Shown here: in pieces, positions 17,259-47,863 of the stretch
Position numbering within the stretch: the stretch's first letter is position 1
Layout of the letters: each line of letters starts with the position of its first letter
Assembly: GCA_003224145.1 (NCBI GenBank)
Contig: QHYN01000206.1
Location: 1-47,903 of the forward strand
DNA length: 47,903 bases
Direction: 5' to 3'
Source: Acidobacteriota bacterium
GTDB lineage: Bacteria; Acidobacteriota; Terriglobia; Acidiferrales; UBA7541
Program-made: the position numbers and the translations under genes
The notes under the pieces: generated by a model
What the model was told of the DNA's origin: nothing
What the model saw: only the letters and a program-made list of their open reading frames with translations
The model's database searches: none

Positions 17259-17684
17259 TCAGTCGCGTTTGGGGCGAGGCAGATCGAAGACGATTTGCTG
17301 CGGCTCGTCGTTTGGCGGATTGACCTCCTTGTCGATGGCCGGGAGCGTGCGAAGGAGCAGGTTACACGTGTAGGCCATGACGGCGGCACGGCGCGGGGAG
17401 ATGCGATCCTGCGCCTGGAAGAGAAGAAGCCGGGAGAGAAAGTCGTTGATAGGGACGGCGGACTTGAATTCGGTGAGGCCGGCGATAAGGTCGGCGGAGA
17501 GATTGGCGGCGTTGTCGCGCTTCTGCTGGCGGCGAGCGTGTTCGGCGCAGAGCGAGGTGAGAGGATCTGCGACAGGCATGCGGCAGCGACCGTTGCGAGT
17601 GTGGTGTTTACAGCCGTCCTGAGGGGATGCCGTGAGGGCGTGGGAATCGTTGAGCGGATTAGAGTTAATAATTGTGGCGGCCAT
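17259..17684 (-). CDS. Small C3H zinc-motif protein (copy 1 of a paralogous pair)
   Basis: Function unknown. From the ATG at 17684 (GAGGA five bases upstream) the product is 141 residues; a frame open to 18002 adds only unlike sequence. An N-terminal Ser/Asn-rich region is followed by Cys/His ligands spaced C-x8-C-x11-C-x2-H (CKHHTRNGRC ... LCAEH), resembling WRC-type C3H zinc motifs. The helical C-terminal half contains NLSADLIAGLTEF, ISPRRAAVMAYTCNLLLRTL and the terminus DLPRPKRD. The gene at 47362-47799 encodes the same layout with matching NLSADL/DLSADL, PRRAAV-AY and DLPRPKRD blocks. Both genes carry the same inverted repeat upstream. A nucleic-acid-binding or regulatory role is plausible but unproven. 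Confidence 0.78.
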   Translation of the reverse strand: MAATIINSNPLNDSHALTASPQDGCKHHTRNGRCRMPVADPLTSLCAEHARRQQKRDNAANLSADLIAGLTEFKSAVPINDFLSRLLLFQAQDRISPRRAAVMAYTCNLLLRTLPAIDKEVNPPNDEPQQIVFDLPRPKRD

Positions 17685-19092: not shown

Positions 19093-19179
19093 TTCCCATT
19101 TTGAATCTGTTGCCAGAACCGTTTGATGCGCAGAGTTAGCGGAGTAAAGCAGCGTCTGCAAGCGCAGTTCGAGTGTACA

Positions 19180-20253
19180 ATGTCGGCCGCTCCGCAACCT
19201 CAAATCGAAAGCTCGGTGGACAAAATGAACGCACCGACTGCAAAGAGCCAGACGCCGCCTGCCCACGTCGGCATGTTTCAACTGTTGAATGGCGTGTTCG
19301 TTGTGGGCGCCGTTTCCTGCCTGGCGCGGCTCGGCATTCCCGACCTCGTCGAACACGGGCCGAAGTCGGCTGACGAGCTGGCCAGCCAGATAGGAGCTGA
19401 CCCGCGCGCACTCTATCGTCTGCTGCGCGCCACGGCCTGCGTGGGAGTGCTTTCGGAAGGCCCCGATGGAAAGTTTTCGGAGACACCGCTTTCTTCCGTG
19501 CTGCGCAGCAACGCGAATCCCAGCTTGCGAGCCTTCGCGATCATGCACGGCAGGGATTGGCACGGACTCGGCTGGTCCCACCTCGATTATTGTGTGCGGA
19601 CTGGAAAGCAAGCCCTCGACAAAATCTACGGCATGCCCATCTTTCAATTCTTTGAGCAGCACCCCGAGGAGGGGCAACTCTTCCAACAATCCATGACCGA
19701 TTTGTCCACGATTGACGGTCCGGCGGTGGCCGACGCCTATTCGTTCGGCGAAATTCATTCCCTTGTGGATGTGGGCGGCGGGCACGGACTTCTCCTAGCG
19801 ACGATCCTGGCGGGGAATCCACATTTGAAAGGCACGCTCTACGATATGCCACACGTCGTGGCGGGGGCCAAGGACGGACCGCTCAAGCCGGTGATGGAAC
19901 GCTGCACGCTGGCATCCGGTGATATGTTTTGTTCGGTTCCCGCGGGCGCCGATGCCTACATCATGAAACACATCATGCACGACTGGCCGGATGAGGGGTG
20001 CATCAATGTCCTCAAAGCCTGCCGAGAGGGCGTGAATTCCGGCGGCAAGCTCCTCGTCGTAGACAACGTGATTCAGCCCGGCAACGATTTCGCACCGGGC
20101 AAATTCCTCGACCTGCAAATGCTGATCTTTCCCGGCGGATGTGAGCGTACCGAAAAGCAGTTCCGCGACCTGTTCGCAGCCGCGGGCTGGCGGTTGAGCC
20201 GTGTTATCCCCACCGCTGTTCCCGAGTCCATCGTTGAAGGTGTCCCCGCCTGA
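19180..20253 (+). CDS. O-methyltransferase (plant/hydroxyneurosporene OMT type)
   Basis: SAM-dependent methyltransferase with an N-terminal winged-helix dimerisation domain (GMFQLLNGVFVVGAVSCLARLG to RLLRATACVGVL) and a C-terminal catalytic domain: LVDVGGGHGLLLATIL for SAM, DMPHVV, GDMF and IMKHIMHDWPDE, whose His is the catalytic base in this family. Relatives methylate hydroxyls on carotenoids or aromatic secondary metabolites; no such biosynthetic genes are in the window. The start is uncertain: ATGs at 19126, 19180 and 19225 are in frame and none has a strong SD; 19180 is chosen, giving 357 residues. Confidence 0.88.
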   Translation: MSAAPQPQIESSVDKMNAPTAKSQTPPAHVGMFQLLNGVFVVGAVSCLARLGIPDLVEHGPKSADELASQIGADPRALYRLLRATACVGVLSEGPDGKFSETPLSSVLRSNANPSLRAFAIMHGRDWHGLGWSHLDYCVRTGKQALDKIYGMPIFQFFEQHPEEGQLFQQSMTDLSTIDGPAVADAYSFGEIHSLVDVGGGHGLLLATILAGNPHLKGTLYDMPHVVAGAKDGPLKPVMERCTLASGDMFCSVPAGADAYIMKHIMHDWPDEGCINVLKACREGVNSGGKLLVVDNVIQPGNDFAPGKFLDLQMLIFPGGCERTEKQFRDLFAAAGWRLSRVIPTAVPESIVEGVPA

Positions 20254-20544: not shown

Positions 20545-21305
<761 letters not shown>

Positions 21306-21309
<4 letters not shown>

Positions 21310-23387
21310 ACCGAGTGTCCAGTTTTGCTTTTCGCGTGGCGGTGGCCGCGATTTTTTTATCTTTCGGTATAAGCCGGATGAAAGCGCAGGAGCCTGCATC
21401 CCCTCCGCCTAAGCAGGAGGCAGCGAAGCAGGAGCCCAGCAAGCAAGAGCCAGCCAAGAAGGAAACCGTAGACGAGCCAGAGGAAGAACGGAATCCGTTT
21501 GCGCCGGAGCCGGCTCCGACGTTGCCACCGGGGATGGCGGGGTCGGATGCGAATGATCCGCGCGCCAAGCTGACGCCGGGACTGTATGACGCGGGTGATG
21601 CTTCGATGGGCATCAAGCACGTCATGCTATTCAAGAAGTCTGACGCGTTTCAACTCGGCGCGACTGATCCCGATGATCCGAAGGTGCAGAAGACGATTGG
21701 ACAGCTCGGTATCGGCAACACCGCAAAGATTCCGAAGCCGATGCATTTGGTGATCGCGCAGCTTGCTTTCGCGAACTCGGATCTTGCGTTCCAGGGCAAC
21801 CACTTGTTCCAGGGGAATTTTTATGGCGTGAGTATCTATGACATCTCCCATCCGGCGACCACCACCTTGCTGACAACAATGGTATGCCCGGGCGGGCAGG
21901 GAGATGTATCGGTGTACAAAAACCTGCTGTTCATGTCGGTGGAGATGCCGAATGGACGTTTGGATTGCGGCGTCGAAGGATTTCCGCCGGAGCCTCCACC
22001 GCCTGCAGGAGAGGAGAAAGACAGAGACAAGGAGAAAGAAAAAAAGCGTCGCATTCCTGCTGCGCAAAAGGACCGTTTCCGCGGCGTGAGGATCTTCGAC
22101 ATTTCCGACATCCTGAACCCGAAGCAAGTCGCGGCGGTGCAGACGTGCCGCGGATCGCATACGCATACTCTCTTGCTAGATCCGAACGACAAAGACAACG
22201 TTTATATCTACGTGTCGGGCACATCGTTTGTGCGTCAGCCGGAAGAACTGGCTGGGTGCTCCGGCGAAAAGCCGGACAAAGACCCGAATACGGCGCTCTT
22301 TCGTATCGAGGTGATCAAGGTTCCGGTGGCTGCGCCGCAGGACGCGAAGGTGGTGTCCAGCCCCCGGGTATTTATCGATCCGAGGACGGGCGCGATGAAC
22401 GGTCTGAGCAACGGCGGCACCCACGGCAAGAAGGGTATGGAGAAGCCGGAGGACACGGATCAGTGCCACGACATCACGGTGTACTCAGCGATTGGGTTGG
22501 CGGCAGGCGCGTGCTCCGGAAACGGAATTGTGCTCGACATCAAGGACCCGATCCATCCGAAGCGTCTGGATGCGGTGAACGATCCGAACTACTCCTATTG
22601 GCACTCGGCTTCGTTCTCCAACGATGGGACCAAAGTCGTGTTTACCGACGAGTGGGGCGGCGGCCTGGGGGCGCGGTGCCGTCCGAACGACCCGAACAAG
22701 TGGGGCGCGGATGCCATCTTCCGTTTGAAGGACGATAAGCTCAGTTTCGCCAACTATTACAAGCTGCCGGCTGCGCAGAGCGACACGGAAAACTGTGTGG
22801 CGCATAACGGCTCGCTGATTCCGGTCCCTGGCCGCGATATCGAAGTGCAGGGCTGGTACCAAGGCGGCATCTCTGTTGTGGACTTCACCGATCCGGCGCA
22901 ACCTTTCGAGATTGCCTATTTCGACCGCGGGCCGATTGATCCGAACATGTTGGTGCTGGGCGGCGAATGGTCGGCCTATTGGTACAACGGCTACATTTAC
23001 GGTTCGGAGATTGCGCGCGGCCTGGACGTGTTTGAACTGACGCCGACCAAGTTTCTGACGCAGAACGAAATTGATGCAGCGAAGGCGGTTCGCGTGCCCG
23101 AGCTGAATGTGCAGAACCAGCAAAAAATCGAGTGGCCTGCACAATTGGTCGTGGCCAAGGCGTACCTGGACCAGTTGTCCCGGTCGCACGCCTTGCCGGC
23201 CGACCGAATCGCATCTCTGCGGAAGGGGATCCAAAGCGCAGAGAGTTCGTGCATGAGCCAGAGCCAGCTGGCGAAGTTGAAGCGCATGGCGCCATCGTTG
23301 GAAAAAAACGCCGCGACGGCGAAGAACCAGGCGGACTGGGCTCGGCTGCATGCTTTGGCGGAGATTCTGAAGCACCCGTCAACGTAA
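21306..23387 (+). CDS. LVIVD-repeat beta-propeller protein, exported
   Basis: A 693-residue secreted protein. A signal peptide (AVAAIFLSFGISRMKA) leads to a Lys/Glu/Pro-rich linker (~28-75). The body has repeats of the form GVSIYDIS, GVRIFDISD, GIVLDIKDP and GISVVDFTDP, as in LVIVD propellers. A low-complexity, highly charged insert (residues ~238-256, Glu/Lys/Arg/Asp) interrupts the propeller. The C-terminal ~100 residues are helical. Its start overlaps the DUF305 stop by four bases, so the two are made together; the pair presumably acts outside the cytoplasm, perhaps on metal. No catalytic residues recognised. Confidence 0.85.
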
Positions 23388-46135: not shown

Positions 46136-46888
46136 CTATCGCGCCATCGGCCGCTGAAACACGGGTGCGCCCGGCCGACGCAGCGCGTAGCCCTGCGACT
46201 GCCCGGGAACGTGCGCGTGCGCAGCCCCACTCGAATGGCCCATCCCGATATGTCCCATCCCGTTGCCATTCGCCGGCGCAGTTTGCGGAAGCCGCGCCGG
46301 ATTACCGATAGGGCGGAGGTTCACCGGGGCCGCATGCACGTGATCGCTGATCGCCTGCAGCCTCTTCAGAATGGACTGCCACTGTTCCCAATCCAGTTGC
46401 CGCAGGAACGGCCGCAGTCCTTGGATGAACGGATCCTCCAGCAGCGCTTCGCCGTCCGATTCCGGGATGAAGAACCGGTTCAGCCCCACGTTCAGCGCTT
46501 CGGAGATTTTCTCCAGCGTGCCCAGGCTCGGGGTCATCTGCCCGCTCTCGATGCGTGACAGATACGAGCGCGAGACCTTCGAGCGCGATTGCAGTTGGCT
46601 TTGGGTCATCGAGCGCGATTCGCGCAACTGGCGAATCCGCTGCCCGATGTTCTCCACCGTCTGCTGGTTGACCAGCTTCTCCGACTCAGTTTCAGCGGCC
46701 ACTTCCTCCGGCGGTGCCGGGGGAGGAATCAGAAATTCCAGGCGCTGAGGCAATACGCGCACGCATCGCCGGCAATTTCCCGTGCGCGTCCGGTACTGTA
46801 CCAGTCCGCAAGTCTTGCAGCGGATGACTTCCCGGTCCATCTCTAACGAAAACGAATTCAATTCTTCTTTATTCACTTGTGCCGCCAC
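46136..46888 (-). CDS. XRE-family regulator with N-terminal zinc ribbon and His/Met/Gly-rich tail
   Basis: A 250-residue DNA-binding protein. N-terminal zinc ribbon from CKTC and CRRC pairs (~24-43); a Pro/Glu linker; an HTH_3 domain at ~78-135 (IGQRIRQLRESRSMTQSQL, SRSYLSRIESGQMTPSLGTL); then a helical segment and a low-complexity tail (GNGMGHIGMGHSSG and following His/Ala). The tail could bind metal. The start is a GTG at 46888 with AAGGAG upstream. It is expressed from a strong promoter at 46979-47007 and has its own terminator, so it is a single-gene unit. Target genes are unknown. Confidence 0.88.
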   Translation of the reverse strand: MAAQVNKEELNSFSLEMDREVIRCKTCGLVQYRTRTGNCRRCVRVLPQRLEFLIPPPAPPEEVAAETESEKLVNQQTVENIGQRIRQLRESRSMTQSQLQSRSKVSRSYLSRIESGQMTPSLGTLEKISEALNVGLNRFFIPESDGEALLEDPFIQGLRPFLRQLDWEQWQSILKRLQAISDHVHAAPVNLRPIGNPARLPQTAPANGNGMGHIGMGHSSGAAHAHVPGQSQGYALRRPGAPVFQRPMAR

Positions 46889-47361: not shown

Positions 47362-47799
47362 TCAGTCGCGCTTGGGGCGAGGCAGATCCATGATGATTTC
47401 CTGCGGCTGGTCGTCCGATTCTTTTTTGATGGCGCGGTGGGAATGCAGGAGCTGGTTGGTGATGTAGGCGAGGACGGCGGCGCGGCGCGGCCCGACGCGG
47501 CCTTTGGTCACCTGAACAAGGAGACGGGCGAGGAATTGGCGGATGTCGACGCCGGAGGAGAATTCGGAAAGCTCGGGGAGGAGGTCCGCAGAGAGATCGG
47601 CAGAGTCATTGGGGGATGCCGGGAGGGCGACGAGGATTGGATGGAAATGTCGAGAACAGAAGCCAGATTGAGATTCTAAGCCGGGGAAACGGCAGCGCTT
47701 GCCATTGGAGAAGCGATACTGGCAGCGAGGAGACTCGTTCTGGGACGGAACTGCAGGGACTTCCAGGGTAGAGCTGGCGTTCGTGATGGTGGAGTTCAT
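47362..47799 (-). CDS. Small C3H zinc-motif protein (copy 2 of a paralogous pair)
   Basis: Function unknown. The ATG at 47799 (GAGGAAAA upstream) gives 145 residues. Zinc-type ligands are C-x9-C-x11-C-x2-H (CQYRFSNGKRC ... FCSRH), the spacing of WRC-like motifs, with SNGKRC and GFC surrounding text. The C-terminal half matches copy 1 (17259-17684): DLSADLLPELSEF, VGPRRAAVLAYITNQLL and the terminus DLPRPKRD. Both are on the same strand with the same upstream repeat. The matching blocks lie mainly in the helical half, which suggests that the conserved function is there. Not obviously mobile: no transposase or target duplication seen. Confidence 0.8.
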   Translation of the reverse strand: MNSTITNASSTLEVPAVPSQNESPRCQYRFSNGKRCRFPGLESQSGFCSRHFHPILVALPASPNDSADLSADLLPELSEFSSGVDIRQFLARLLVQVTKGRVGPRRAAVLAYITNQLLHSHRAIKKESDDQPQEIIMDLPRPKRD

Positions 47800-47863
47800 G
47801 ATTTTCCTCGTTTGGGGGGTAGACACACCCCGGTCATTTTGTAAGAGGTTCAACACAAAGGGG

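Follow-up and report, generated by a model that had tools for sequence, protein, structure and literature searches.

Two paralogous C3H genes

The window, i.e., the whole stretch of 47,903 nucleotides that was analysed, contains two genes for small proteins that are referred to here as C3H proteins, copy A and copy B. Both are read from the minus strand with ATG starts at the coordinates in Table 1. The proteins have a common layout: a short variable head, a C-x8/9-C-x11-C-x2-H motif, a helical half and a DLPRPKRD end. The initial annotation had taken them for a paralogous pair on the strength of this layout, and this is upheld: the two align with 54 identical residues of 123 (44% over 123 aa; BLASTP E 3e-31), the Cys/His motif can be read in both, and the ADL and PRRAAV-AY blocks as well as the identical DLPRPKRD end are present in each. 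Among 23 aligned relatives C36, C48, H51, P104, R105, R106, A107, V109, A111 and Y112 (copy B numbering) are invariant, while C26 of copy B is kept in 90% or more of the rows.

Table 1. Features of the C3H genes in the window
Feature	Position	Strand	Basis
C3H protein copy A, whole gene, 141 aa	17259..17684	-	dN/dS 0.34 against L174
Copy A zinc-type motif, C25-x8-C34-x11-C46-x2-H49	17538..17612	-	Direct reading and alignments
Copy A TerS-like C-terminal tail, QQIVFDLPRPKRD	17262..17300	-	Coding pattern and tail comparison
C3H protein copy B, whole gene, 145 aa	47362..47799	-	dN/dS 0.26 against L169
Copy B zinc-type motif, C26-x9-C36-x11-C48-x2-H51	47647..47724	-	Direct reading; model, pLDDT means 76-88 over residues 21-50
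Copy B predicted two-helix unit, residues 83-98 and 104-129	47413..47553	-	Model, pLDDT means 74-90
Copy B TerS-like C-terminal tail, QEIIMDLPRPKRD	47365..47403	-	Coding pattern and tail comparison
G-run/C-run leader element GGGGTGTGTCTACCCCCC before copy B, loose variant	47814..47831	-	Resembles leader before many genes of the class

Modelled with AlphaFold2 (pLDDT 73.7, pTM 0.44), copy B has a small knuckle, a loose tail and, between them, helices at residues 83-98 and 104-129. The initial annotation had looked to structure prediction for signs of a DNA- or RNA-binding fold. A knuckle and two helices were modelled, and no solved structure matched at E≤0.001: Foldseek gave no PDB or BFVD match at this level, the best BFVD hit being an unnamed entry at 8.4e-3. 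Judging from the motif and the model, the head may bind zinc and DNA. The dN/dS ratio, measured for ten pairs of C3H-family genes, is 0.11-0.68, and in nine of the pairs it is below 0.5. These values are as expected of real genes which, judged by their sequences, are under purifying selection.

In the window, the C3H copies have kinase-PD40, SDR and XRE genes as neighbours (Pfam). An XRE-type HTH regulator whose N-terminal part is Cys-rich adjoins copy B (window 46136-46888, minus strand). Elsewhere, C3H genes are found near matches of the copy A neighbourhood, namely window 19123-20253 (O-methyltransferase) with L195 and L196, and 20641-22000 with L174. This suggests that C3H genes of different species lie in a common insertion neighbourhood around copy A.

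A wider leader element

The leader before copy B is a loose variant, and loose matches are no commoner in the window than in shuffles. The exact palindrome, GGGGGTACCCCC, is present at 67 places, spread over 17 of the 26 genomes scanned; the reversed control is present in 2 of them. Contexts were fetched for 57 of the 67 places, leaving out the ten of G221, and the palindrome stands just before a C3H gene in six of the 57, a seventh being a chance reading. Autoregulation of C3H genes through a GGGGGTACCCCC leader was set aside on this count. Among 18 other places are what we take to be leaders of genes reading like RibD and MnmA and, in one family, the palindrome often follows TTACA..GGTAATAT. 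It is a wider leader element, not specific to the C3H family, and from its placement it may possibly act as a leader or regulatory element. The string was not found in the literature searched.

Size, spread and assignment of the family

A larger family had been anticipated by the initial annotation, and 12 members are found in G000 (4.79 Mb, 359 contigs), the genome to which the window belongs. Here, tblastn gives 13 matches at E≤1, which comprise these 12 C3H-family genes (two damaged and one cut by a contig end) and one gene that has the tail only. One damaged copy, L004 on contig C160, is without the middle of the gene; in the other, L012 on contig C201, the zinc region is found, by reading, in another frame. 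DNA similarity among the copies is mainly in the coding region, with few short matches outside. A transposon repeat was ruled out, as the copies have no long shared flanks.

At the level of the genus, a profile built on eight paralogues finds C3H matches in 27 of 36 genomes, with up to 13 per genome. A part of these matches was retrieved, e.g., 11 of 13 in G003, 9 of 10 in G033, 1 of 3 in G001, and 1 of 2 each in G026 and G034. Database relatives come from assemblies named Acidobacteria (several of them gp2), Terriglobia, Acidoferrales and Candidatus Acidiferrum typicum, and the soil group of Acidobacteria that carries the family is known here mostly from metagenome assemblies. In a sample of the phylum, at least 15 of 297 genomes have matches, one of these being G000; in the remaining 14 the matches are weak, with 1e-8 as the best E, and the count is a lower bound because 13 candidates per genome were scored.

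No Pfam, NCBIfam or PHROG family covers the C3H proteins at its cut-off. The WRC type named by the initial annotation is not borne out: the WRC domain (PF08879) has no match in either window copy and, in the paralogue L007, falls below the Pfam gathering score (E 0.095; 12.9 bits against 28.6). DUF5763 (PF19067) reaches 11.4 bits against 26.3 for copy B (E 0.23) and has no match in copy A, and the zf-primase score is sub-threshold as well. The Cys/His spacing of DUF5763 and WRC is like that of the C3H proteins, but the scores are far under the curated cut-offs. A phage or plasmid gene was also considered and rejected: tblastn with copy B returned no phage record and one weak plasmid match (E 0.6). 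Likewise, an f11 relative used as the query gave no phage record, and no relative turned up when viral contigs were scanned with A2.

The proteins of family f11 and L053 are zinc-knuckle/helical proteins of other Acidobacteria. They resemble the C3H proteins in that a C-x9-C-x10 or more-C-x2-H knuckle can be read in them and their helical region aligns. They differ in their C-termini (e.g., VEEVIxDPxxGxLAP-like), and their best E per genome is 1e-8 to 1e-4. Many of these remote relatives (L051-L078) end in a recurring VEEVIxDPxxGxLAP or similar motif. To judge by its sequence, this end might serve for docking on some other partner.

The tail is shared with the protein upstream of the large terminase

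A pattern coding for DLPRPKR is found at seven places in G000 (reversed control 0), which are six C3H genes and C150:1871-2392. The latter encodes a 174 aa protein that is of a different build from the C3H proteins and shares the tail only; its tail, QQIIFDLPRPKRD, is one residue off the copy A tail QQIVFDLPRPKRD. Relatives of this protein in the genus are encoded in the same orientation as, and upstream of, a gene with FGGAAGPGKTKALLWEAI, which is the large terminase, TerL (PHROG large terminase, 6.8e-40). A match to the protein at this position lies within about 0.8 kb upstream of TerL and on the same strand in 15 of 15 TerL-bearing genus genomes, two of these matches being weak (G019 and G034, E 0.004 and 0.01). 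It has no Pfam or PHROG match, and its low-confidence, three-helix model gave no PDB fold match at E≤0.001. From gene position and this model, it is a putative small terminase and is called TerS below. The initial annotation had seen the identical tail of copies A and B, not its sharing with the TerS-position protein of a phage-like cluster, nor its tendency to go with the genome, which is described below.

The main TerL match of G000 is on contig C150. In the cluster, TerL is followed downstream by a portal-sized ORF, a scaffold-like ORF (both labelled by size and place), the capsid gene (PHROG major head protein, 1.4e-5) and more conserved ORFs. The portal-sized ORF and other scanned neighbours have no phage family match at E≤0.01, and the gene order is kept. 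Cluster loci are L265, L266, L267, L268 and L271, with L301-L357 from IMG/VR. A MOSC-domain gene lies on the upstream side of the cluster in four genus genomes (L265, L267, L268, L270) and five IMG/VR contigs. Apart from L267, 62 loci were inspected for this gene, and 8 have it. Twelve of them extend at least 5 kb upstream of TerL; the gene is present in 7 of these, and in the remaining five TerL identity is 50-56%. A second TerL in G026 (contig C233) is identical to that on contig C1 of G027, which is perhaps due to mixed strains in the assembly.

From its genes, the cluster looks like a domesticated prophage or a gene-transfer-agent-like locus. IMG/VR yielded 94 related terminase loci, of which 80 were kept, and with so many relatives there an active phage family is also possible. 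The cluster may make particles. A limited full-text search, which took in excerpts of PMC5900883, found no report of a gene-transfer-agent cluster in Acidobacteria.

Different genomes have different tails. In G003, TerS and five C3H genes have the tail GIDMTGAPRPIRN, and the DMTGAPRP-coding pattern is found in this one of the 36 genus genomes, at six places that are the one TerS and the five C3H genes. Other C3H genes of G003 have a second tail, IIIDIPGAIR. IIFDMPGPERD is present in both TerS and the C3H protein L215 of G033, WNIPRP in TerS and C3H of G019, and IIWD-x-P-x-P in both in G008. For G424, the sole new TerL-bearing genome among eight further assemblies, the C3H tail IIWDMPGP was known first and the TerS end, read afterwards, is IIWDMPGPVREPR, which matches. 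L169, from another assembly (G425), also ends in the DLPRPKRD type.

The tail is carried by 6 of the 12 C3H copies of G000 and is missing from the other half. It forms the very C-terminus in L001, L003 and L005. It is not always at the very end because about 25-35 further residues follow it in L002, L004 and L006, an arrangement that is also seen in most tailed C3H copies of other genomes. With a wider DNA pattern for the tail, 18 matching places were obtained, which come from 7 of 61 genomes; the reversed control gave one match each in several genomes. These places are seven in G000, three C3H genes of G023, one TerS of G004, two bare pieces and five chance readings in other frames. The bare pieces, SQTIIFDLPRPKRD and QQIVWDLPRPKRG in L264 (G011) and L081 (G030), are each followed by a stop and preceded by nothing that can be recognised as a C3H or TerS body; they are perhaps remnants.

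The tail tends to follow the genome

When the TerS tail of each of 15 genomes was compared with the C3H tails of the same genome, the mean best score was 41.4 versus 28.1 on permutation (p 5e-5; 20,000 shuffles). This test omitted 12 open frames without a helix anchor (L258, L232, L218, L209, L210, L222, L254, L256, L243, L257, L234 and one frame of L186). L218, which has a tail, was used in the 11-genome test and in the pair comparison below. For the 11 genomes with tail-motif C3H proteins, G424 included, the scores were 52.9 versus 33.9 permuted (p 1e-5; 100,000 shuffles). Label shuffling leaves relatedness in, for which the nine-genome repeat, with the similar pair G007/G009 removed, is a partial control (exact p 5.5e-6). 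Ranked against 51 TerS tails, the TerS of the same genome came first in 6 of the 11 genomes, tied in 2, and was not first in the other five (G007 4th, G009 3rd, G005 13th, G026 3rd, G027 8th). Five more TerS-bearing genomes (G001, G004, G011, G034, G035) have no C3H tail that scores above 20.

The tree of the C3H cores, made without the tails, places the DLPRPKRD copies of G000 in three separate places, where their neighbours mostly have different tails. The tails of G003 and G033 are likewise found in separate places, i.e., the cores are polyphyletic for tail type. The tree holds 62 distinct cores of the 74 that could be cut, over 101 columns, and 15 of its 59 inner branches are open. Same-genome pairs with less than 60% core identity have a tail score of 58.0 (31 pairs), as against 28.9 (475 pairs) for different-genome pairs under 60% core identity and 35.5 (81 pairs) for those at 60% or more (label shuffling, p 5e-5). 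This comparison used 36 tail-motif rows, including the broken L004, the contig-end L006 and the near-identical pair L180/L181. Tail type thus tends to go with the genome, not with the protein core.

The codons bear on how this likeness is kept. In G033, TerS and L215 share 11 identical residues and 7 of the 11 codons differ synonymously; in G424, the eight residues IIWDMPGP of TerS and C3H have synonymous differences in 4 of 8 codons. Identical peptides with different codons mean that the tail peptide is maintained, and this codon usage points to selection on the peptide.

The association between the C3H family and TerL is partial, since C3H matches are present in 15 of 15 TerL-bearing genus genomes and also in 12 of the 21 without TerL (p about 0.003, hypergeometric by hand, with relatedness and completeness ignored). 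Four assemblies with tailed C3H genes (G421, G422, G423 and G425, with L184, L175, L176 and L169) gave no TerL at E≤1e-10 and no TerS at 0.01, an empty search that by itself proves nothing. For family f11, this TerL is found in only 4 of 80 genomes, and the link through the tail is therefore seen at the level of the genus alone. C3H genes do not lie beside TerL, and the 80 IMG/VR terminase loci contain no C3H match. When the C3H and TerS profiles were compared, hhalign gave 60% probability (E 8.6e-5) over an alignment that spans the helices, with agreement in the tail by eye. As the genes are not beside TerL and the profile comparison is only 60% probable, the C3H proteins are not placed in the TerS family here.

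Proposed mechanism and alternatives

We propose that the dispersed, chromosomal C3H proteins dock on the terminase by means of a copied small-terminase tail, a reading to which we give a probability of roughly 0.55. A C3H protein would consist of a zinc-knuckle head, a two-helix middle and a TerS-type tail, and the tail would dock on the partner of TerS. By precedent this partner would be TerL, and more precisely its ATPase domain. C3H proteins would then be alternative adaptors, with the zinc/helical part on chromosomal DNA and the terminase either brought there or held away, so that their effect on the terminase may be one of recruitment or of restraint.

The precedent is the gene transfer agent of Rhodobacter capsulatus (RcGTA), in which the C terminus of TerS binds the ATPase domain of TerL, according to excerpts of PMC6854486. 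By analogy, the tail can be read as a terminase-docking peptide and the C3H proteins as extra adaptors or decoys. As described in the same excerpts, it is the C-terminal part of RcGTA gp1 (TerS) that docks on TerL; here, the tail is common to the protein upstream of TerL. Unlike gp1, C3H proteins contain a zinc knuckle, and their genes stand away from TerL and are many in each genome. Their likeness to the TerS-position protein is mainly in the tail. The TerS of SaPI satellites is likewise a second small-terminase-type protein in the cell, in the parts of PMC6893505 consulted. The C3H proteins differ from it in being encoded by several dispersed single genes and in having a core that is not recognisably TerS.

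It is tentatively possible that the arrangement goes further. Here, a domesticated, virus-like packaging machine would have a motor that is addressed by dispersed adaptors, each with its own zinc-knuckle head and a copy of the resident small-terminase tail, and the tails would co-evolve with the machine species by species. Each adaptor might mark its own packaging site, as phage pac sites do. TerS proteins set the packaging start through pac sites; for RcGTA, no discrete start sites were found, as stated in excerpts of PMC7947584.

The same tail evidence would be seen if C3H proteins were decoys that bind TerL by the copied tail and block or limit packaging, either as host control or as a defence against phages with related terminases, which we hold to be conceivable, if rather unlikely. 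An inhibitor could well take the form of several cheap copies at scattered loci, with heads that vary and a tail that keeps pace with its target, and related terminases are present on the IMG/VR contigs counted above. A plain inhibitor, however, needs no conserved unit of zinc motif and helices, and the genes appear to be under purifying selection. It is less likely that the tail binds not TerL but another partner common to both families, such as the portal, a protease, a polymerase or other host protein. The tailed C3H genes in the four assemblies without a detectable TerS/TerL cluster speak for such a partner. However, a housekeeping partner leaves the joint change of the tail in both families from species to species unexplained, and in G000 and G003 nothing outside the C3H and TerS families has the exact tail pattern.

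An ordinary regulatory or nucleic-acid-binding zinc-motif family with an incidental tail, which is the view of the initial annotation, is very unlikely. The Cys/His spacing and the sub-threshold DUF5763, WRC and zf-primase scores are in keeping with it, but it does not explain the co-variation of the tails, and no family scores over its cut-off. Least probable, and already disfavoured by the codon pattern, is DNA-level gene conversion, in which the end that encodes the tail would be copied from gene to gene and have no functional partner: some C3H paralogues do have 94-97% DNA identity in their 3′ ends over 39-127 bases with differing upstream parts, but the identical TerS and C3H peptides differ synonymously (7 of 11 codons in G033, 4 of 8 in G424).

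What is unexpected is the genome-specific sharing of a tail between a chromosomal family of several scattered copies and a phage-type protein at the small-terminase position; no report of such sharing was found in the open-access literature searched. It provides a handle from sequence alone, in which the tail of one uncharacterised protein predicts that of another and possibly its partner, and it points to a gene-transfer-agent-like cluster in soil Acidobacteria. If docking on the terminase by the copied tail is true, the C3H proteins would form a layer, encoded by the host in several copies, that attaches to a packaging motor of phage origin, and this would bear on how such elements choose DNA or are kept from it.
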